Assembly (NCBI GenBank): GCA_018054895.1
Contig: JAGPIQ010000013.1
Span: 1 to 33,868, forward strand
Source of the DNA: Lutibacter sp.
GTDB lineage: Bacteria > Bacteroidota > Bacteroidia > Flavobacteriales > Flavobacteriaceae
DNA length: 33,868 nucleotides
Reading direction: 5' to 3'
Of the stretch, positions 2,313 to 26,179 are shown piece by piece (the stretch's first letter is position 1; every line of letters begins with the position of its first letter). The notes under the pieces are model-generated. The model saw only the letters and a list, made by a program, of their open reading frames with translations. It searched no databases and was not told where the DNA came from. Made by a program: the position numbers and the translations under genes.

Positions 2313-3692
2313 TTATATAACCTTCTTTATGATATTAAAATACTTAAAAGGCACATATTTAAAAGGTATATCAATCCAAGTAGGTGCTGTTACAACTGCT
2401 CTTTTATTGCTAAACGCTAAAAAACTTTCGTATCCGTGGTACTTTCCCATGCCGCTATTTCCTACACCTCCAAAAGGTAAATTATGATTCCCAATATGCA
2501 TCAATGTATCATTTACACAGGCGCCACCTGATGTTGTTTTTGCCAATACTTCTTTTGCCTTTTTGTTTTTTCCAAAATAGTAGAGTGCTAAAGGTTTTTC
2601 ATTCATATTGATGTAATTTATCGTTTCATCAATGTGTTTAAAAGTCATTACTGGTAAAATAGGACCAAATATTTCTTCTTGCATCACCAAAAAATCAGGC
2701 TGAACATTGTCAATAATTGTAGGTGCTACAAATAATTCTTCGGCATCAATTTCTCCACCTGTATGAATGGTGCCTTGATGTACTAATTCTGCCAATCTAT
2801 CTACAGCTCGTTTATTTACAATACGTGGGTAAAAACGACTTTCCTTTATATTTTCACCATACATTAACTGTATGTTCGTGGCTATTTTAGTTAATAATTC
2901 ATCTTTAATGGATGCATGTGCAAAAAGATAATCGGGTGCAATACACGTTTGTCCAGCATTTATTAATTTACCCCAAATAATGCGTTTAGCTGCAATATCA
3001 ATATCGGCATCGGCATCTACAATACACGGACTTTTACCACCTAATTCCAACACTACAGGTGTTAAATTTTCGGCAGCTGCTTTCATAACTACTTTTCCAA
3101 CTTTTGAACTTCCTGTAAAAAAAATAATATCAAACCGTTGCGCGAATAAGATAGTATTCACTTCTCGCCCACCTTGAACAACACAGATATAATTAGAATC
3201 AAAATTTTCAACAATCATCGCTTCCATTAGTTTTGCAATTGTTGGTGTATCTGGTGATGGTTTTAAAACACTACAACACCCAGAAGAAATAGCACCAACC
3301 AATGAATTAAAAACCAATTGAAAAGGATAGTTCCAAGGCGAAACAATTAATGCGACACCCAAAGGTTCATAAATTATTTTACTTGATGAAGGCAACAAAT
3401 GAATAGGTGTTGAAACTCTTTTAGGTTTCGCCCATTTTTTTAACTGTTTTATATGGTTGTCTATTTCGCCAGTTACAATGCTAATTTCCGTTAAATAAGC
3501 TTCTTCAGGAGATTTGTGCAAATCCTTCCACAAAGCTTGTTCTATTTTTTGTTGATTTTGAAGAATGACTTTTTTCAACTTATGAAGTTGTGCCAATCTA
3601 AAATTAATAGCTTTTGTTTGATGCGTAGAAAAAAAAGCTTTCTGATTCGCTATATATTCAACGATACTATTTTCTGAAGTGTCTATCATCAT
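2313..3692 (-). CDS. Aldehyde dehydrogenase (class 3 / fatty-aldehyde type)
   Basis: NAD(P)-dependent oxidation of an aldehyde to a carboxylate. The 459-residue length fits the short class 3-like ALDH group. Visible landmarks are PWNYPF with the oxyanion Asn121, the cofactor segment FFTGSSKVG (191-199), general-base Glu216 in LELGGK and nucleophile Cys250 in NAGQTC. The C-terminus is aromatic and basic (FKYVPFKYF), which could favour membrane association as in fatty aldehyde dehydrogenases, though this is inference. It lies six bases downstream of an SDR gene on the same strand, so the two are probably co-transcribed and may act in sequence on a long-chain alcohol/aldehyde. Substrate cannot be read from the sequence. 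Confidence 0.9.
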   Translation of the reverse strand: MMIDTSENSIVEYIANQKAFFSTHQTKAINFRLAQLHKLKKVILQNQQKIEQALWKDLHKSPEEAYLTEISIVTGEIDNHIKQLKKWAKPKRVSTPIHLLPSSSKIIYEPLGVALIVSPWNYPFQLVFNSLVGAISSGCCSVLKPSPDTPTIAKLMEAMIVENFDSNYICVVQGGREVNTILFAQRFDIIFFTGSSKVGKVVMKAAAENLTPVVLELGGKSPCIVDADADIDIAAKRIIWGKLINAGQTCIAPDYLFAHASIKDELLTKIATNIQLMYGENIKESRFYPRIVNKRAVDRLAELVHQGTIHTGGEIDAEELFVAPTIIDNVQPDFLVMQEEIFGPILPVMTFKHIDETINYINMNEKPLALYYFGKNKKAKEVLAKTTSGGACVNDTLMHIGNHNLPFGGVGNSGMGKYHGYESFLAFSNKRAVVTAPTWIDIPFKYVPFKYFNIIKKVI

Positions 3693-3698
3693 AATGTA

Positions 3699-4505
3699 TT
3701 ATTTTTTGTGACCTGTAAAATGCTCCATCGTTTTATAAATTCCAAGTAAGCTGCCAGCAAACCAATCGAATACATTAATGGACATCAATGCTTGACCTAA
3801 TCGTGTAAACCTGTAAATGTAACCCGGAATAGTTACCATTTTTTTATTGTTTTCAATGGCCTTAATTATGGTAAGTGCCGCTGCTTCTGGTTCCAAAATA
3901 GGAATTTTTGACTGAACACCTGCAAACATTCCTGTATGTATATAATAGGGCATTATGGTTGTTACAAATACCTCCTTATTTAACTGTTTCATTTCAAGCC
4001 TCAAACTATCTGACCAACCAATTACCGACCACTTACTTGCCGCATAAACAGCCATTTTAGGGTTTGAAATAAGTCCTCCTGAAGATGCAATATTACAAAT
4101 ATGTCCTGAATTTTGCTGGAGCATATCTTTTAAAAACGCACTGGTAACCAACATTGGAGCATTGGCATTTATTTCCATGGTTTTTAATATTTCATCTGTA
4201 GTATGTTCATAAAAATATTTTCCCACAATAATACCTGCATTGTTTATAAGCATATCAACTACACCAACTTCTTGCTTTACTTTTTTAGCGGTTTCTTGTA
4301 TTTGTGCTAAATTAGAAACATCCACATTAAAACCAATAATAGTTCCCTTGGAAGAAAATTCAACAACAGTTTCATCAATTTTTGATTGATTTATATCCCA
4401 AATTATAACGGTTGCTTTTCGTTCTAATAATAAGCGAGCCATAATTTTCCCAATACCAGATGCTCCTCCAGTTATTAACGCTATTTTACCCTCTAATTGT
4501 TTCAT
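3699..4505 (-). CDS. Short-chain dehydrogenase/reductase (SDR)
   Basis: Classical SDR of 268 residues. The Rossmann glycine motif TGGASGIG is at 12-19 and an acidic residue after the second strand (Asp37) suggests preference for NAD(H). NNAG is at 88-91. The catalytic set is Ser141 or Ser142, Tyr154 and Lys158 in YAASK. The C-terminal third is hydrophobic and basic, resembling membrane-associated retinol/17-beta-hydroxysteroid dehydrogenase-like SDRs. It is the first gene of a pair with an aldehyde dehydrogenase six bases downstream, consistent with alcohol to aldehyde to acid conversion. Which lipid or alcohol is used is unknown. Confidence 0.9.
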   Translation of the reverse strand: MKQLEGKIALITGGASGIGKIMARLLLERKATVIIWDINQSKIDETVVEFSSKGTIIGFNVDVSNLAQIQETAKKVKQEVGVVDMLINNAGIIVGKYFYEHTTDEILKTMEINANAPMLVTSAFLKDMLQQNSGHICNIASSGGLISNPKMAVYAASKWSVIGWSDSLRLEMKQLNKEVFVTTIMPYYIHTGMFAGVQSKIPILEPEAAALTIIKAIENNKKMVTIPGYIYRFTRLGQALMSINVFDWFAGSLLGIYKTMEHFTGHKK

Positions 4506-4612
4506 TTTTAGCTATTTTAATTATTATTTCAGAACCTATATTTTTATTCCGATAGCATTATTAGTTTCATAAAAATAATCAAATAAAAATTGGAAACTAC
4601 CTTAAAACAAAA

Positions 4613-4640
4613 AAAAGCACTCAAAAAAATGAGTGCTTTT
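4613..4640 (-). terminator. Rho-independent terminator after tRNA-Arg
   Basis: A perfect 10-bp inverted repeat, AAAAGCACTC (4613-4622) and GAGTGCTTTT (4631-4640), with an 8-base loop. Read on the minus strand it is followed by a run of eight T residues. It lies eight bases after the 3' end of the tRNA and would end the yqeY/tRNA transcript. Confidence 0.85.
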
Positions 4641-4647
4641 AGCATTG

Positions 4648-4721
4648 TGACCTCGGAGGGATTCAAACCCACAACCGCTGGAGCCGAAATCCAGTGCGCT
4701 ATTCAGTTGCGCCACGAGGCC
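4648..4721 (-). tRNA. tRNA-Arg (anticodon UCG)
   Basis: A 74-nt cloverleaf on the minus strand. The acceptor stem GGCCTCG/CGAGGTC has one G-U pair and discriminator A; no CCA is encoded. The D-stem is GCGC/GCGC. The anticodon stem is CTGGA/TCCAG with loop TTTCGGC, giving anticodon TCG (Arg, CGA codons). The T-stem is GTGGG/CCCTC with one T-T mismatch (50-64). Two normally near-invariant elbow bases differ together: the D-loop reads AACTGAATA (A at 19 where G is usual) and the T-loop reads TTTGAAT (T at 56 where C is usual), so the 19-56 tertiary pair would be A-U instead of G-C. It lies 19 bases downstream of yqeY and may be co-transcribed. Confidence 0.93.
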
Positions 4722-4740
4722 TATAATATTGATATTAGAA

Positions 4741-5190
4741 TTACCCTAACAATTGTTTCACTGCAATTGAAATAGCTTTTCCATCCGCCTTTCCAGCTAA
4801 TTCTTTTGAAGCTTCTGCCATAATAGCTCCCATATCTTTCATTGAGGTAGCTCCAACTTTTGCAATTATTTCAGCTACAACTTTTTTAACATCTTCATCG
4901 CTCATTTGAGCTGGTAAAAATTGAGCGATAACTTCCATTTGAGCTAATTCTGGTTCCGCTAAATCTTTTCTATCTTGCTCAAGGTAAAGCGCTGCACTAT
5001 CTTTACGCTGTTTTACTAATTTTTGTAATAATTTTATTTCTTCGTCCTCTGAAATTTCTTCAGTAGCTCCACTTTTCGTTTTTGCTAATAATATTTCCGA
5101 TTTAATGGCTCTTAAAGATTCTAAAGCAACAGTATTCTTTGCTTTCATTGCTTCTTTAATCTTTTCCATTAATAATACTTGTAAACTCAT
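4741..5190 (-). CDS. yqeY: GatB/YqeY domain protein
   Basis: A 149-residue, highly helical protein matching the stand-alone YqeY family. It has an N-terminal MSLQVLLMEKIKEAMKAKN segment, LESLRAIKSEI, then a C-terminal domain with GATSMKDMGAIMAEASKEL and a terminal AVKQLLG. The C-terminal domain is homologous to the tail of GatB, the tRNA-dependent amidotransferase subunit, where it contacts tRNA. A role in tRNA-linked metabolism is therefore often proposed, but the biochemical function is not established. It sits between the ftsZ terminator and tRNA-Arg on the same strand. Confidence 0.92.
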   Translation of the reverse strand: MSLQVLLMEKIKEAMKAKNTVALESLRAIKSEILLAKTKSGATEEISEDEEIKLLQKLVKQRKDSAALYLEQDRKDLAEPELAQMEVIAQFLPAQMSDEDVKKVVAEIIAKVGATSMKDMGAIMAEASKELAGKADGKAISIAVKQLLG

Positions 5191-5218
5191 GTGTTTTGAA
5201 ATTTGATTCTGCGAAGAT

Positions 5219-5267
5219 AAAAAAAAAGAACTCGAAAATCTCTAATTTTCATTAAAGATTTTCGAGT
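5219..5267 (-). terminator. Rho-independent terminator of the dcw operon, after ftsZ
   Basis: A 12-bp inverted repeat, ACTCGAAAATCT (5230-5241) and AGATTTTCGAGT (5256-5267), with a 14-base loop. On the minus strand it is followed by TTC and a run of nine T residues. It lies between the ftsZ stop codon and the yqeY start, so it should close the long division operon. Confidence 0.85.
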
Positions 5268-5313
5268 CCAAAACTTAGAAAATTGGTCTAAGAATTTGTC
5301 TTTGGGTAAAGTT

Positions 5314-7257
5314 TTAATCTACATTGTCATGTAAATATGAATTATTAGAACGGAATTGCAAATCGTCATTCTCATCTATATTTAACGTTGTTCTTGATTG
5401 ATTAGATTCCGAAGAGTGTGAACTTTCATTTAATTGAACACCCATACGCTTATATGCTGGTTCTTTTTCTATTTCATCTATATTTTGATTTACCTTATTT
5501 ACAAATTTGTAATTAAAGTTTTTCATTTTTTCACGTCTTTCTGAGGCTCTTTTTTGAAGCTCTACAATTGTTAGATCTAATGGCGAAATTTCTTTATAAT
5601 CAACAACCTCATGCTCATTCACATCTACAATAGTAGTTTTACGTACTGATAGTTGCATTTCATCTTTTACTACTTCCTTTTTTGCTACTACTGGTTTTCT
5701 AGCTCTTGCAAAGTTATCTTCCAGCTCCGAATAATCTTCTAACGTAAAATGTACTACTGGATCTACTCTTTTCGGCTCTACTATTTTTGAAACTACAGCT
5801 TCAATATTTTGAACCTCAATAGGCTTTACTTCTTCAACTATTTTAGTTTCAATTTTTTGAATTGGTTCATCAATCGGATTTTTTTTAATTTGTGTAATCG
5901 GTAAATCAAACGTAAAAGAAATTTGTTGTTCTTCTTTTTCAGCAACTGGCTCAGGTGCGATTTCTTCTTGAACAGCTTTTACCTCAGTAATTACAAAATC
6001 ATTATAATTTGCAGGTGTAATTTGTTCATAAACCACGTCTAAATTTTTAATAAATTCCGACGTTGGAATAATATCAAACTCATCTTCTTCCTCTTCACCT
6101 AAATCATATACTACAAATTTTGGCTCTTCCTCTTTTAATTCAGTTACTGGTTCATCAATTTTATTCGTTGATTTCTCCATTAGTTTTTTTTCGGAAAAAT
6201 CAAAGGTAGCTTCTTGTTCATCACCTAAGGTGTGAATAATTTTTTTTGCTTCCGTGTTTGAAATTTCACTTTGTTGATCTTTATTAAATCCTGTTGCAAC
6301 TATTGTTACTGCAATGGCCTCCCCTAAAGATTCATCTTCACCAACACCCATAATGATATTTACGTTGGATTTGGCTTCCGACTGAATATAATCGTTTATT
6401 TCTCCAATTTCGTCAATTGTAATTTCATCAGTTCCAGAAACGATTAATAACAATACGTTTTTGGCCCCAGTTATTTTATTATCATTTAATAAAGGTGAGT
6501 CTAATGCTTTTGAAATTGCCAATTCTGAACGATTAATACCCGATGCTGTTCCAGATCCCATAATAGCAGTTCCACTATTCGACAATACTGTTTTAGCATC
6601 TCGTAAATCGATGTTTTGTGTGTAATGGTGTGTAATTACTTCAGCAATACCACGAGCTGCCGTAGACAATACCTCATCCGCTTTTGAGAAACCAGCTTTA
6701 AAACCTAAATTTCCGTAAACTTCACGAAGTTTATTATTATTAATTACAACTAATGAATCTACATATTCACGTAATTTTTCAATCCCCTTTTGAGCTTGTT
6801 CGTTTCTTGTTTTTCCTTCAAAGGAGAATGGAATAGTAACAATACCAATAGTTAACAAATCCATTTCTCGAGCAGCTTTTGCAATTATAGGAGCGGCACC
6901 AGTTCCTGTACCTCCACCCATTCCAACTGTTATAAAAACCATTTTAGAATTAGTAGATAACATTTCTCTAATTTCTTCAATACTTTCTTTAGCTGCATGC
7001 TCACCCACATCTGGGTTTGCTCCAGCACCTAATCCTTCTGTTAGGGTTAAACCTAGTTGAATTTTAGTTGGTATTGGACTTGTTTGTAATGCCTGAGCAT
7101 CCGTATTACAAACTACAAAATCTACTCCGTTAATTCCTTGTGTGTACATGTGGTTAACGGCATTACTACCTCCGCCTCCTACGCCAATAACTTTAATTAC
7201 GTTAGATTGATTTTTTGGTAAATCGAAGGAAATGTTGCTAAAATCTGAACTGCTCAT
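5314..7257 (-). CDS. ftsZ: Cell division protein FtsZ
   Basis: Tubulin-like GTPase that polymerises into the Z-ring and recruits the divisome. The GTPase domain is intact: GGGGSN at 27-32, the tubulin signature GGGTGTG at 114-120, and the T7 loop N215-x-D217-x-x-D220, which completes the active site of the neighbouring subunit. The protein is 647 residues, far longer than the roughly 380 of E. coli FtsZ. Residues from about 335 to 590 form a low-complexity, Glu/Lys/Val-rich linker. The tail contains EKEPAYKRMGVQL and ends LHDNVD, similar to what I recall for other flavobacterial FtsZ proteins, rather than the proteobacterial CCTP. It is the last gene of the dcw cluster, 50 bases after ftsA and before a strong terminator. 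Confidence 0.98.
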   Translation of the reverse strand: MSSSDFSNISFDLPKNQSNVIKVIGVGGGGSNAVNHMYTQGINGVDFVVCNTDAQALQTSPIPTKIQLGLTLTEGLGAGANPDVGEHAAKESIEEIREMLSTNSKMVFITVGMGGGTGTGAAPIIAKAAREMDLLTIGIVTIPFSFEGKTRNEQAQKGIEKLREYVDSLVVINNNKLREVYGNLGFKAGFSKADEVLSTAARGIAEVITHHYTQNIDLRDAKTVLSNSGTAIMGSGTASGINRSELAISKALDSPLLNDNKITGAKNVLLLIVSGTDEITIDEIGEINDYIQSEAKSNVNIIMGVGEDESLGEAIAVTIVATGFNKDQQSEISNTEAKKIIHTLGDEQEATFDFSEKKLMEKSTNKIDEPVTELKEEEPKFVVYDLGEEEEDEFDIIPTSEFIKNLDVVYEQITPANYNDFVITEVKAVQEEIAPEPVAEKEEQQISFTFDLPITQIKKNPIDEPIQKIETKIVEEVKPIEVQNIEAVVSKIVEPKRVDPVVHFTLEDYSELEDNFARARKPVVAKKEVVKDEMQLSVRKTTIVDVNEHEVVDYKEISPLDLTIVELQKRASERREKMKNFNYKFVNKVNQNIDEIEKEPAYKRMGVQLNESSHSSESNQSRTTLNIDENDDLQFRSNNSYLHDNVD

Positions 7258-23033: not shown

Positions 23034-23471
23034 ATGATCAAAAAATTCATGTTTGGTGCATTGCTTATTTGCGCATCAATAGCTGGAAATGCTCAAAATT
23101 GGCTGACAAATTTTGAAGATGCTACTTCCTTAGCTTCAAAATCAAATAAAAATATTGTTTTGGTGTTTCAAGGCTCGGATTGGTGCGCTCCCTGTATTAA
23201 ATTAGATCATGAAATTTGGAGCACTTCCGCTTTTATAGACTATTCAAAAGAACATTTTATACTTGTGAAAGCTGATTTTCCTAGAAAAAGTAAAAATCAA
23301 TTATCAAAGGAACAGGAACTTCAAAATAAAAATTTAATGGAAAAATATAACAAACAAGGTTATTTTCCATTTGTAGCTGTTATTAATAAAAAAGGTGAAT
23401 TATTAGGAAGTACTGGTTATAAAAAAACGACTCCAGAAGATTATATAAAAACACTTACTTCGTTTAAATAA
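23034..23471 (+). CDS. Exported thioredoxin-like protein
   Basis: A 145-residue protein with a signal peptide (about 1-20, ending NAQ). A thioredoxin fold follows, with the redox motif W50-C51-A-P-C54. It resembles the Thioredoxin_7/DUF255-like secreted group: FEDATSLASKSNKNIVLVF leads into the active site, and FPFVAVINKKGELLGSTGY carries the cis-Pro side. It is the first of four closely packed genes with an ApbE flavin transferase, a Cys-tailed lipoprotein and an outer-membrane barrel. I infer that it reduces or protects cysteines of a partner, perhaps the CGC tail of the lipoprotein. Confidence 0.88.
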   Translation: MIKKFMFGALLICASIAGNAQNWLTNFEDATSLASKSNKNIVLVFQGSDWCAPCIKLDHEIWSTSAFIDYSKEHFILVKADFPRKSKNQLSKEQELQNKNLMEKYNKQGYFPFVAVINKKGELLGSTGYKKTTPEDYIKTLTSFK

Positions 23472-23475
23472 ATCA

Positions 23476-24459
23476 ATGAAAAAATCACTTTTTCTAATTG
23501 TATTTCTAATTGTAGCATCTCAACTATTTAGCCAAAATATTTACAGAAAAACATTGAAATTAATGGGAAGTCGCTTCGACCTTACCGTTGTTGCAAATGA
23601 TTCTTTGAATGGGGAAAAATATATCAATTTAGCAGTTGAAGAAATTACACGAATTGAAAAATTAATATCGTCTTGGGACCCGAATTCCCAGACTTCGGAA
23701 GTCATTAGGAATGCTGGAATTCAACCTGTAAAAGTGGATGCTGAATTATATAATTTAATTGAACGATCCATAGCTATTTCCAAATTAACCGATGGCGCTT
23801 TTGACATTAGCTATGCTTCAATGGATAAAATTTGGAAATTTGATGGAAGTATGAAAGTTATGCCTTCTGAAGAAGAAATAAAAGCTGCCATTTCAAAAAT
23901 AGGATTTCAAAATATTATTCTTGATAAAACAAACCAAACGGTTTTTTTAAAACTAAAAGGAATGAAAATTGGTTTTGGCGCCATTGGAAAAGGCTATGCT
24001 GCTGATGTTGCTAAAAATTTACTCATTTCAAAAGGTGTTGTAGCTGGAATAATAAATGCTTCTGGCGACATGAATACGTGGGGAAAACAGCCGAATGGCG
24101 ACGATTGGACGATTGCTATTACAAACCCACTAAATAAAAATATTTCTTTTGCTATTTTTCCGATTTCTAATAAAGCAGTAGTTACTTCAGGCGATTATGA
24201 AAAATTTGTAACTTTTAACGGTATACGATATTCACACATTATTGATCCAAGAACTGGCTATCCTGCAACAGACATTATTAGCGCTACAGTTTTTGCTCCA
24301 AAAGCAGAATTGGCAGATGCACTTGCTACATCTATTTTTGTAATGGGTACTGAAGTCGGAATAAACAGAATAAATCAATTAAAAAACGTGGAATGTATTA
24401 TTATAGATTCCAAGGGCGGAATTCACACTTCTAACAATATAAATATCAACAATAAATGA
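23476..24459 (+). CDS. apbE: FAD:protein FMN transferase (ApbE)
   Basis: Mg-dependent transfer of FMN from FAD to Thr/Ser of exported proteins. A signal peptide (about 1-19, LFSQ cleavage) has no lipobox Cys. Family motifs are MGSRF at 30-34, GAIGKGYAAD at 168-177, NASGD at 194-198, His254 with IDPRTGYP at 256-263, and probable Mg-binding Asp281 and Thr285 in DALAT. Its 327 residues are typical. It starts four bases after the thioredoxin-like gene and its last four bases overlap the next start (ATGA), so the genes are one translation unit. No Nqr/Rnf or FMN-bind target is nearby, which makes its neighbours the likely clients. Confidence 0.96.
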   Translation: MKKSLFLIVFLIVASQLFSQNIYRKTLKLMGSRFDLTVVANDSLNGEKYINLAVEEITRIEKLISSWDPNSQTSEVIRNAGIQPVKVDAELYNLIERSIAISKLTDGAFDISYASMDKIWKFDGSMKVMPSEEEIKAAISKIGFQNIILDKTNQTVFLKLKGMKIGFGAIGKGYAADVAKNLLISKGVVAGIINASGDMNTWGKQPNGDDWTIAITNPLNKNISFAIFPISNKAVVTSGDYEKFVTFNGIRYSHIIDPRTGYPATDIISATVFAPKAELADALATSIFVMGTEVGINRINQLKNVECIIIDSKGGIHTSNNININNK

Positions 24460-24668
24460 TTAAAAAAATAGGTTTACTCACCTTTATAATTGTTGCATTC
24501 TCATCGTGTGTAGCAGTTAAAGAATACGAAAAAGTTTATTTAAACGACCCAGATATGGTGTTATCATCCAAAAAAATAGATAAGTTTGAAACAAGTTTTC
24601 AGGTATATCGCGAGGCAGCTTCGGGTGCCAATGGAGGAAAATCAGGTGGTGGATGTGGTTGTAATTAA
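24456..24668 (+). CDS. Small lipoprotein with Gly-rich CGC tail (DUF4266-like)
   Basis: Only 70 residues. A lipoprotein signal with lipobox FSSC predicts lipidation at Cys18. A short middle (YEKVYLNDPDMVL, FETSFQVYREAASGA) is followed by the C-terminal tail GGKSGGGCGCN with Cys67 and Cys69. This layout matches the DUF4266 family, of unknown function, found next to DUF3570 and ApbE genes. The mature form would be a membrane-anchored peptide of about 53 residues with two exposed thiols, suited to metal or redox cofactor binding; that is inference. It overlaps apbE by four bases and precedes the DUF3570 gene by nine. Confidence 0.85.
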   Translation: MIKKIGLLTFIIVAFSSCVAVKEYEKVYLNDPDMVLSSKKIDKFETSFQVYREAASGANGGKSGGGCGCN

Positions 24669-24677
24669 TTAAATTCT

Positions 24678-26138
24678 ATGAAAAATATATTTTTAACAAC
24701 GCTTCTTCTGACTTCATTTTTGGGATTTTCCCAAACTACAGAAGACAGCTCGAAAACCTTCACAAAACGTGTGTTGGAAAATACTGAAGTCGATTTAATA
24801 ACTAGTTTTTACGGACAAGATGGCGATAATGCAGCGGTAACTGGTGGTATTGGAACTGAAAAATTAACCGATATAGCAACTACAATAACTGTTTCTATTC
24901 CCTTAAATGCTAATGATGTTTTAACCATTGATGGAACAATTTCAGCATACAGTTCGGCATCCTCAAGTAATTTGAATCCGTTTGATGCTTCTGGCGCTTC
25001 AAGAAACGGAGATGATGATGATGATGATAAAAAATCAAAATCGAGTGCTGCTGAACCCGTAACTGGAAGCCCTTGGGTGGAATCATCAGGCGCATCCAAA
25101 TCTGACGTTTGGGCAAATGGAGACATTGGTTATAGCCATTCTTCAAACGACAGAAATACTATAGTTGGTGCAAATCTTTCATTTGCTAATGAATTTGATT
25201 ATACTTCAGTTGGAATTGGCGGAAATTTCACTAAACTTTTCAATGAAAAAAATACTGAAATTAGTATAAAAGGAAACGTATATTTTGATAGTTGGCAACC
25301 TGTTTATCCAACAGAAATAAAATCATACAATGAGGTAAATAAAAATTTAAACAAAGGTTTTTTTGAAGGTATCGATATTTTGAATCAAAGTGGTGCTGTT
25401 ATTAATAAAACTGGAACCACCATTTGGAGTCCTTTTAACACTACTTTAGTTGAAAATAAATCTCGGAACACTTATTCAGCATCCTTAAGTTTTTCTCAAA
25501 TAGTAACAAAAAAAGCTCAAATTTCTATTTTTTTAGATGTAGTTCAACAAAGCGGCTGGTTATCAAACCCTATGCAGCGTGTGTATTTTTCCGATAGACC
25601 AAATTACTATATTGGAAACGCTTCGAACATTACTAATTATACTTCTAAAAAAAATACCGATGTTTTTCAATTAGCTGATGATATTGAACGATTACCCGAT
25701 ACACGTTTAAAAATACCAGTTGGTGCTCGTTTTAATTATTATATAAATGAAGTTGTTGCATTAAGAACCTATTACAGGTATTATTATGATGATTGGGGAA
25801 TAACATCACACACGGCATCTATTGAATTGCCTGTGAAAATTTCTGACAAGTTTACTTTATATCCAACATACCGTTATTATACGCAAACAGCAGCTGACTA
25901 TTTTGCTCCGTTTGAAGAATTAATATCTACGGATGAATTTTACACATCAGATTATGATTTATCGGAATTCAACTCAAATCAGTTTGGCTTTGGAATCACC
26001 TATACTGATATTTTCACTTCTAAACGAATTTGGAAATTAGGATTGAAAAGTGTGGACTTAAAATACAGTAATTACAAAAGAAACACAGGTTTAACGGCAG
26101 GAATTATTTCGGCAGGATTAAAATTTGTGATGGATTAA
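24678..26138 (+). CDS. DUF3570-like outer-membrane beta-barrel protein
   Basis: A 486-residue protein with a signal peptide (about 1-18, GFSQ). It is built of alternating amphipathic strands (LNEVVALRTYYRYYYDDWG-like and FTLYPTYRYY) and ends in a strand (GIISAGLKFVMD), as in the DUF3570 barrel family. Residues 103-140 form a probable extracellular or plug loop with two SGAS motifs (105-108, 137-140) and six consecutive Asp (112-117). SGA[ST] resembles the flavinylation site recognised by ApbE, whose gene lies two genes upstream; flavinylation is hypothesis only. Function of the family is unknown to me. It ends the four-gene unit and is followed by a terminator. Confidence 0.88.
   Translation: MKNIFLTTLLLTSFLGFSQTTEDSSKTFTKRVLENTEVDLITSFYGQDGDNAAVTGGIGTEKLTDIATTITVSIPLNANDVLTIDGTISAYSSASSSNLNPFDASGASRNGDDDDDDKKSKSSAAEPVTGSPWVESSGASKSDVWANGDIGYSHSSNDRNTIVGANLSFANEFDYTSVGIGGNFTKLFNEKNTEISIKGNVYFDSWQPVYPTEIKSYNEVNKNLNKGFFEGIDILNQSGAVINKTGTTIWSPFNTTLVENKSRNTYSASLSFSQIVTKKAQISIFLDVVQQSGWLSNPMQRVYFSDRPNYYIGNASNITNYTSKKNTDVFQLADDIERLPDTRLKIPVGARFNYYINEVVALRTYYRYYYDDWGITSHTASIELPVKISDKFTLYPTYRYYTQTAADYFAPFEELISTDEFYTSDYDLSEFNSNQFGFGITYTDIFTSKRIWKLGLKSVDLKYSNYKRNTGLTAGIISAGLKFVMD
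25011..25028 (+). repeat. (GAT)6 trinucleotide run within the DUF3570 gene
   Basis: Six perfect GAT codons encode Asp112-117. Triplet slippage would change the length of the acidic run without shifting frame. Confidence 0.9.
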
Positions 26139-26144
26139 AACAAA

Positions 26145-26175
26145 AAAAACGAGGATTTTAAAGATCCTCGTTTTT
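26145..26175. terminator. Bidirectional terminator between DUF3570 gene and argH
   Basis: A 12-bp inverted repeat, AAAAACGAGGAT (26145-26156) and ATCCTCGTTTTT (26164-26175), with a 7-base loop. It has T-runs in both directions and sits between two converging genes, so it can stop both transcripts. Confidence 0.9.
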
Positions 26176-26179
26176 CTAA

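Follow-up and report, generated by a model that had tools for sequence, protein, structure and literature searches.

A conserved four-gene envelope unit of Lutibacter with a probably flavinylated DUF3570 barrel, tentatively read as a thiol- and flavin-based outer-membrane electron conduit

We analysed a stretch of 33,868 nucleotides from Lutibacter sp. (GenBank assembly GCA_018054895.1, contig JAGPIQ010000013.1, positions 1 to 33,868; hereafter the window). At 23034–26138, on the forward strand, it carries genes for a thioredoxin-like protein, the flavin mononucleotide (FMN) transferase ApbE, a small lipoprotein of family DUF4266 and a predicted outer-membrane barrel of family DUF3570. This four-gene set is one conserved unit, of a kind published in 2021, and the DUF3570 protein is probably the client of ApbE in the unit and carries flavin. 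We favour, with reasonable though far from full confidence, the reading that the unit is an exported electron relay ending on an outer-membrane flavoprotein, along which electrons would pass from DsbD to the thioredoxin-like protein, a CGC tether, barrel-borne FMN and an external acceptor. A fuller version is offered with more doubt than conviction: a cytochrome-free outer-membrane conduit in which dithiol electrons from DsbD and thioredoxin would reach, through the CGC-tipped lipoprotein, covalent FMNs on the outward side of a barrel with 16 strands. The FMN would be loaded on the unfolded chain, in many lineages before export by an apparently signal-less ApbE, and in green sulfur bacteria the conduit would stand beside Cyc2-like cytochrome-porins. 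The features of the unit are as follows.

23034..23471, + strand: thioredoxin-like gene (Thioredoxin_7, exported, 145 amino acids); PF13899, 46.8 bits against a cut-off of 27, E-value 3.4e-12
23184..23195, + strand: CAPC active-site codons (C51–C54) of the thioredoxin-like gene, from reading the sequence
23476..24459, + strand: apbE (FAD:protein FMN transferase), signal-like N-terminus, no lipobox by eye; PF02424, 278 bits, 9.1e-83
24456..24668, + strand: DUF4266 lipoprotein gene, 70 amino acids, lipobox Cys18, C-terminal CGCN; PF14086, 73 bits, 3.8e-20
24654..24665, + strand: CGCN codons of the DUF4266 gene, from reading the sequence
24678..26138, + strand: DUF3570 gene, predicted outer-membrane barrel and likely ApbE substrate, 486 amino acids; PF12094, 141.6 bits, 4e-41
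24951..24962, + strand: DUF3570 flavin site 1, S92–S95 (SSAS), candidate acceptor S95, by aligned motif
24990..25001, + strand: DUF3570 optional middle site, S105–S108 (SGAS), before an Asp run, by aligned motif
25086..25097, + strand: DUF3570 flavin site 2, S137–S140 (SGAS), candidate acceptor S140, by aligned motif

An earlier note on this DNA had described four coupled genes with gaps of 4, −4 and 9 bases, all encoding exported products. The open reading frames and Pfam matches agree with this; all four products exceed the curated cut-offs and have a hydrophobic, signal-like N-terminus. The lipobox-like FSSC of DUF4266, ending at residue 18, was recognised by eye, and the CGCN ending named in that note is read directly from the sequence.

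We surveyed the gene set in 198 genomes of the phylum Bacteroidota, an uneven sample in which 31 of the 54 unit carriers belong to one family, f16. DUF4266 and DUF3570 are present in the identical 54 genomes (by genus, 18 of 103 each), and in 52 of these the two genes share a strand and are no more than 1.5 kb apart; G024, one of the two exceptions, has DUF4266 at a contig end. ApbE occurs in 131 of the 198 genomes, including 53 of the 54 with DUF3570 (G181 is without it), and it is at most 5 kb away, on the same strand, in 50 of the 54. A profile search found all four genes in 29 of 40 stretches drawn from the carrier genomes. We also examined 80 named loci, which are the best 80 of 565 confirmed matches and therefore close relatives of the window's unit. 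The window's gene order is kept in 76 of them (with the thioredoxin gene split into two open reading frames in one); three of the remaining four are cut by contig ends and one has no called DUF4266. The nearest DUF3570 relative fetched is from a Lutibacter metagenome-assembled genome (83% identity). The earlier note had staked its proposal on the four genes being kept together across genomes, and the co-conservation found is strong.

As regards the client, the description of ApbE as an FMN transferase without a recognised flavoprotein target needs correction. Meheust et al. (2021) found ApbE, DUF3570, a thioredoxin-like protein and DUF4266 to be typical of 285 DsbD flavinylation clusters, and 316 further clusters hold the four without DsbD (PMC8238504). 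When the DUF3570 protein of Chlorobium luteolum was co-expressed with its own ApbE in E. coli it was flavinylated, and abolishing this required replacing the serines of both [S/T]GA[S/T] motifs (PMC8238504). The flavinylated Chlorobium homologue, together with the homologous sites in the window's protein, supports the earlier expectation that the client lies inside the unit. Meheust et al. call the function of these systems uncertain (PMC8238504), in agreement with the earlier statement that it is not established. A full-text literature search for DUF3570 or DUF4266 returned that paper as its sole match, and DUF3570 does not occur in the main text of a 2024 follow-up (PMC11334425).

We aligned 42 diverse DUF3570 copies and observed the following. 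The site 1 motif, ending at the window's S95, is present in 41 of them; all 17 f16 copies have it as [S/T]GAS, and the remaining 24, two of them from family f14, as [S/T/A]SAS. Site 2, ending at S140, is present in 30 copies, plus one aligned at 137, and a third motif at S108 in three only, namely the window's copy and two more from its family. The window protein has two [S/T]GA[S/T] motifs (SGAS at 105–108 and 137–140), and its motif aligned with the f16 first site is SSAS at 92–95. As many as 15 of the 42 copies have no [S/T]GA[S/T] at all, and ten of these retain two [S/T]SAS motifs. Among the DUF3570 copies of the named loci, 54 of 81 have at least two [S/T]GA[S/T] motifs, and the acceptor serines of both sites are invariant in the 79-row close alignment. 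The usual ApbE motif is D-x-x-[S/T]-G-A-[S/T], and a Gly-to-Ala change in one substrate left about half of the flavinylation (PMC12052999); serine at the Gly position is thus plausible. DUF4266 was also considered as an ApbE substrate and rejected, its SGA-like stretch being variable (SGAN, AGAN, VGAN, GGAN, VPAN, SGGS and others).

A known flavoprotein elsewhere in the genome could, as the earlier note pointed out, account for all ApbE-dependent flavinylation. RnfG and NqrC are indeed encoded elsewhere, PF04205 (FMN_bind, NqrC/RnfG type) giving two matches in the genome and none within the unit, and a profile search found two ApbEs. In a tree of 69 ApbE sequences, including 48 unit ApbEs, the genome's second ApbE belongs to a clade of 12 with full support, which includes six fetched ApbEs located 3' of nqrF-like genes (neighbours named by eye; NqrC was found by BLAST in those same six loci). 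The window's ApbE is outside that clade, on the tree's other side, among the 48 unit ApbEs and nine non-unit ones. Seven of these nine fall together in one clade, and for five of the seven a PepSY-like gene (by eye) stands no more than 270 bases 5'. Three changes of the label 'unit' are required on the tree; the unit ApbEs are thus clustered and not an exclusive clade. Because the tree separates the unit ApbE from the Nqr-linked clade, which the second ApbE joins, the Nqr and Rnf proteins do not account for it, and the view that ApbE serves Nqr or Rnf only was rejected.

The N-termini of 35 unit ApbEs were read by eye. A signal peptide is seemingly absent in 21, present in 12 and unclear in 2 (uncertain starts). 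The signal-less ones are all 12 f16 copies read (L092–L096, L098, L099, L101, L104–L107) and nine Bacteroidia copies (L068, L069, L075, L077, L078, L079, L082, L083 and L084), although by eye DUF3570 has a signal peptide. Six f16 copies were checked for upstream stop codons, and five have one at most 30 codons before the start. A loose hydrophobicity screen was positive in all 79 ApbEs of the named loci; it is a weak screen, since 8 of 14 green sulfur copies also pass. If FMN were loaded before the barrel assembles, and perhaps even before export, it would be clear how a periplasmic or cytosolic enzyme can mark a loop that ends up outside.

On the thiol side, the DUF4266 tail is CGC plus one or two residues in all 118 copies (114 CGCN, 3 CGCG and 1 CGCAK). 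Counted from the presumed lipobox Cys, the copies have a median length of 53 residues; one truncated copy is without that Cys. The nearest solved sequence to the Thioredoxin_7 protein is 2ju5 (E-value 2.6e-14), annotated as a thioredoxin disulfide isomerase, which we take to be Chlamydia DsbH, a reductase. The protein missed the cut-off of the DsbH equivalog NF043050 (93.4 against 190 bits). Its active-site context is SDWCxPC in Bacteroidia relatives and ASWCxPC in families f16 and f14. The thioredoxin type also varies, being Thioredoxin_7 in the window and Redoxin/AhpC-TSA in three proteins checked from f16 and f14, which suggests that the role was kept while the protein was swapped. A DsbD gene was found in 10 of the 40 fetched unit stretches, all of family f16, and the window's genome encodes two DsbD_TM proteins, on contigs C41 and C110. 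The window's DUF3570 has no cysteine, and 108 of 123 copies have none after residue 40; therefore, a disulfide relay cannot continue into most of them, and a dithiol would have to reduce FMN in the final transfer. Precedent for such a step comes from Erv2, where a C-terminal CXC acts as shuttle disulfide to the FAD site (PMC4019985), and from Erv1, where the measured potentials are −250 mV for the shuttle disulfide and −148 mV for the flavin that it feeds (PMC7318334).

For the barrel, links after even strands in our hand-made strand model are nearly constant at 2–10 residues, and the three widely varying links all follow odd strands, including the loop between the two flavin sites (19–71 residues). 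Porins usually have a periplasmic N-terminus and short periplasmic turns (PMC8406198). From this rule and the hand-assigned link lengths we infer that both flavin sites lie on the outer side of a 16-strand barrel. The S140 site is missing in six f16 copies, and in five of these the first loop, which is on that side too, has a second SGAS.

The relay that we propose would run as follows. ApbE would place FMN on the serine motifs of DUF3570, a client demonstrated in the Chlorobium relative, presumably while the chain is still unfolded. DsbD, whose gene lies elsewhere in the genome, would bring electrons out of the cytosol and reduce the thioredoxin-like protein; thiol-disulfide exchange would carry them to the CGC tip of DUF4266, and this dithiol would reduce the FMNs of DUF3570. 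On long loops at the outer strand ends, the FMNs would hand the electrons to an outside acceptor. Topology, electron route, direction and acceptor are all what we infer. Such a relay would be comparable to the C-terminal CXC shuttle of Erv2 feeding a flavin, and would fill the role of haem-based Cyc2 or Mtr conduits.

Part of the support comes from the genomic context in green sulfur bacteria. The FMO protein (PF02327) was found in all 15 f16 and both f14 genomes tested and in none of three others, including G000, and the green sulfur set with the unit comprises 33 genomes (31 f16 and 2 f14). A Cyc2-like match lies within 13 kb of the unit in 18 of the 33, and within 3 kb on the same strand in eight; wherever the two share a contig (20 pairs), they also share a strand. 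Within f16, Cyc2-like matches occur in 26 of 31 genomes with the unit, compared to three of nine searched genomes without it. L208 carries, in this order, Cyc2-like, Rieske, ferredoxin and cytochrome b genes (the last in two pieces), then genes for an 8-haem, a one-haem and one more protein, and finally the unit; these three proteins were assigned through their L092 copies, and the L092 relative of the one just before the unit has a carboxypeptidase-regulatory-like domain. The L208 DUF4266 is hidden by an overlapping open reading frame and was seen in L105 (same region). Rieske, ferredoxin and cytochrome b were confirmed by Pfam in L208 only. L208 (2444–15226), L209 (1769–14096) and L210 (1692–17359) each have the Cyc2-like gene, cytochrome b parts, the 8-haem protein and the unit in one direction.

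The Cyc2 motif is AxPxFAR[Q/K][T/Y] (PMC8406198). By eye it is exact in L102, L208, L209 and one of two L210 copies, with W for F in L101 and L104. The downstream PxL motif was seen only in L102 and the other L210 copy; therefore, most of these proteins are Cyc2-like and not proven Cyc2. The matches beyond those named were counted by search. One Cyc2-like query gave no match against solved structures. We found no paper tying the unit to green sulfur Cyc2-like clusters, the available text of PMC8125076, PMC12285243 and PMC8302410 included.

Several observations weigh against the conduit as drawn. The 16 strands were assigned by hand from alignments, and a search with the DUF3570 profile found no relative among solved structures. 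Short links (1, 2 and 5 residues) follow three of the eight odd strands as well. Automatic segmentation reproduced the parity of the hand model only for the 79-row close set and with one of three penalties, and was unstable or inconsistent elsewhere, partly because signal peptides were taken for strands. To reach outward flavins, the DUF4266 tip would have to enter the barrel or be surface-exposed. Site 1 of the window is without the Gly of the usual motif, [S/T/A]SAS is only a candidate modified motif, and six of the 42 diverse copies have just one recognisable motif within the first 260 residues. No DsbD was found on the unit's contig, C238, and DsbD adjoins the unit in only one of the 80 named close relatives. 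Among the 33 green sulfur genomes, two have the Cyc2-like gene farther than 13 kb away, seven on other contigs and six have none. The window's genome has no Cyc2-like match, and the green sulfur context is therefore merely suggestive for the window's family.

The alternative that survives best, although we hold it to be on the unlikely side, keeps the same relay but turns the flavins towards the periplasm or the lumen of the barrel, where they would serve an envelope oxidoreductase and nothing would get to the surface. Long outer loops of barrels can fold inwards, flavins in either position would be within easier reach of a periplasmic lipoprotein tip, and the lack of a solved DUF3570 relative leaves room for this arrangement; the parity of loop lengths and the relocated second SGAS on the same side speak against it. 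An improbable alternative is iron or copper handling, in which the barrel-borne flavin would reduce Fe(III) for uptake, or the CGC would bind Cu(I) kept reduced by the redox parts. VIT1 is present in 25 clusters of Meheust et al. (PMC8238504), and among the nearest flanks of the 80 named loci RND-efflux-like genes occur in 6 and a response regulator stands directly 3' in 17 (names by eye). However, no metal gene is a constant neighbour of these loci, and 83 of the 118 DUF4266 copies have neither His nor Met within the last 30 residues. The earlier note had named a periplasm-to-surface redox system or a metal-handling one; the redox part is the best reading, and the metal part gained no direct support. 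We consider least probable of all that the unit, like a sulfhydryl oxidase, dumps electrons of periplasmic protein thiols through the DUF3570 flavins and so supports disulfide formation and not cytosolic electron delivery: the parts of a thiol oxidase relay are present (CGC tail, thioredoxin fold and flavin, with the CXC shuttle of Erv2 as model; PMC4019985) and DsbD is not beside the unit in the window's genome or in 79 of the 80 named relatives, but DsbD in 10 of the 40 fetched stretches and 2ju5 as best solved match favour a reducing route.

The surroundings of the unit were also inspected. The genes 5' of it encode, by Pfam, an alpha/beta hydrolase, a GTPase and a pseudouridine synthase, and the gene 3' of it, by eye, argininosuccinate lyase. 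One further feature follows the unit:

26143..26177, − strand by scan, + strand reading by eye: terminator-like hairpin with T-runs, 3' of the unit

The terminator scan gave two matches, not above shuffled sequences (mean 1.8), and scored this hairpin on the − strand only; the promoter scan gave 12 matches compared to 15.9 in shuffles. The flank survey of the 80 named loci found no constant neighbour. The response regulator seen in 17 of them is on the same strand as the unit, and in 15 loci a sensor-kinase-like gene is second downstream (names by eye). In L090, the gene directly 5' of DUF4266–DUF3570 (3663–5936) encodes a protein that combines two CxxCH motifs and a hydrazine synthase alpha middle domain. 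L167 (titled Klebsiella pneumoniae) and L118 and L129 (Chlorobiota and KSB1 metagenome-assembled genomes) carry DUF3570 proteins 57–63% identical to that of the window; these records are probably mislabelled or contaminated bins. Viral contigs gave no relative. The plasmid search gave five records, two Hymenobacter ones with annotated DUF3570 (L212, where a thioredoxin family gene precedes it, and NZ_CP010056.1) and three partial Vibrio matches; the one Vibrio plasmid record inspected carries three annotated features in all.

Should the topology hold, a system present in 54 of the 198 genomes surveyed would carry electrons across the outer membrane by thiols and covalent flavins, not haems. 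DUF3570 and DUF4266 would gain a testable function, the ApbE target motif would extend to [S/T/A]SAS, the gene clusters for electron exchange in green sulfur bacteria would be connected with flavins, and flavinylation before export would become a question. The gene set and the flavinylation of the Chlorobium DUF3570 were already published. Our analysis adds the co-occurrence of DUF4266 and DUF3570, the site 1 variants, the hand topology, the cysteine pattern of the two families, the Cyc2-like neighbourhood and the signal-less unit ApbEs.

The window's unit resembles the DsbD systems of Meheust et al. in having all four families and DUF3570 as the likely ApbE substrate. It differs from them in the absence of DsbD, as in their 316 further clusters, and in SSAS instead of SGAS at site 1. 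Its ApbE bears a signal, unlike the 12 f16 copies read, and its order is thioredoxin, ApbE, DUF4266, DUF3570, whereas most f16 stretches have thioredoxin, DUF4266, DUF3570, ApbE, DsbD. The thioredoxin-like protein is like DsbH in its nearest solved sequence and unlike it in scoring below the equivalog cut-off. Compared with Cyc2, for which 16 strands are also predicted (PMC8406198), DUF3570 is likewise predicted to be an outer-membrane barrel and would carry a covalent redox cofactor of its own, and in many green sulfur genomes Cyc2-like genes adjoin the unit. Unlike Cyc2, DUF3570 has FMN motifs instead of a haem domain (no CXXCH haem site in the window's protein), and its cofactor would sit on loops, not in an N-terminal plug. 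Unlike in Erv2, the shuttle and the flavin are on separate proteins and the flavin would be covalent, with no Erv/ALR family among the Pfam matches; as in Erv2, however, a C-terminal CXC shuttle would pass dithiol electrons towards a flavin.

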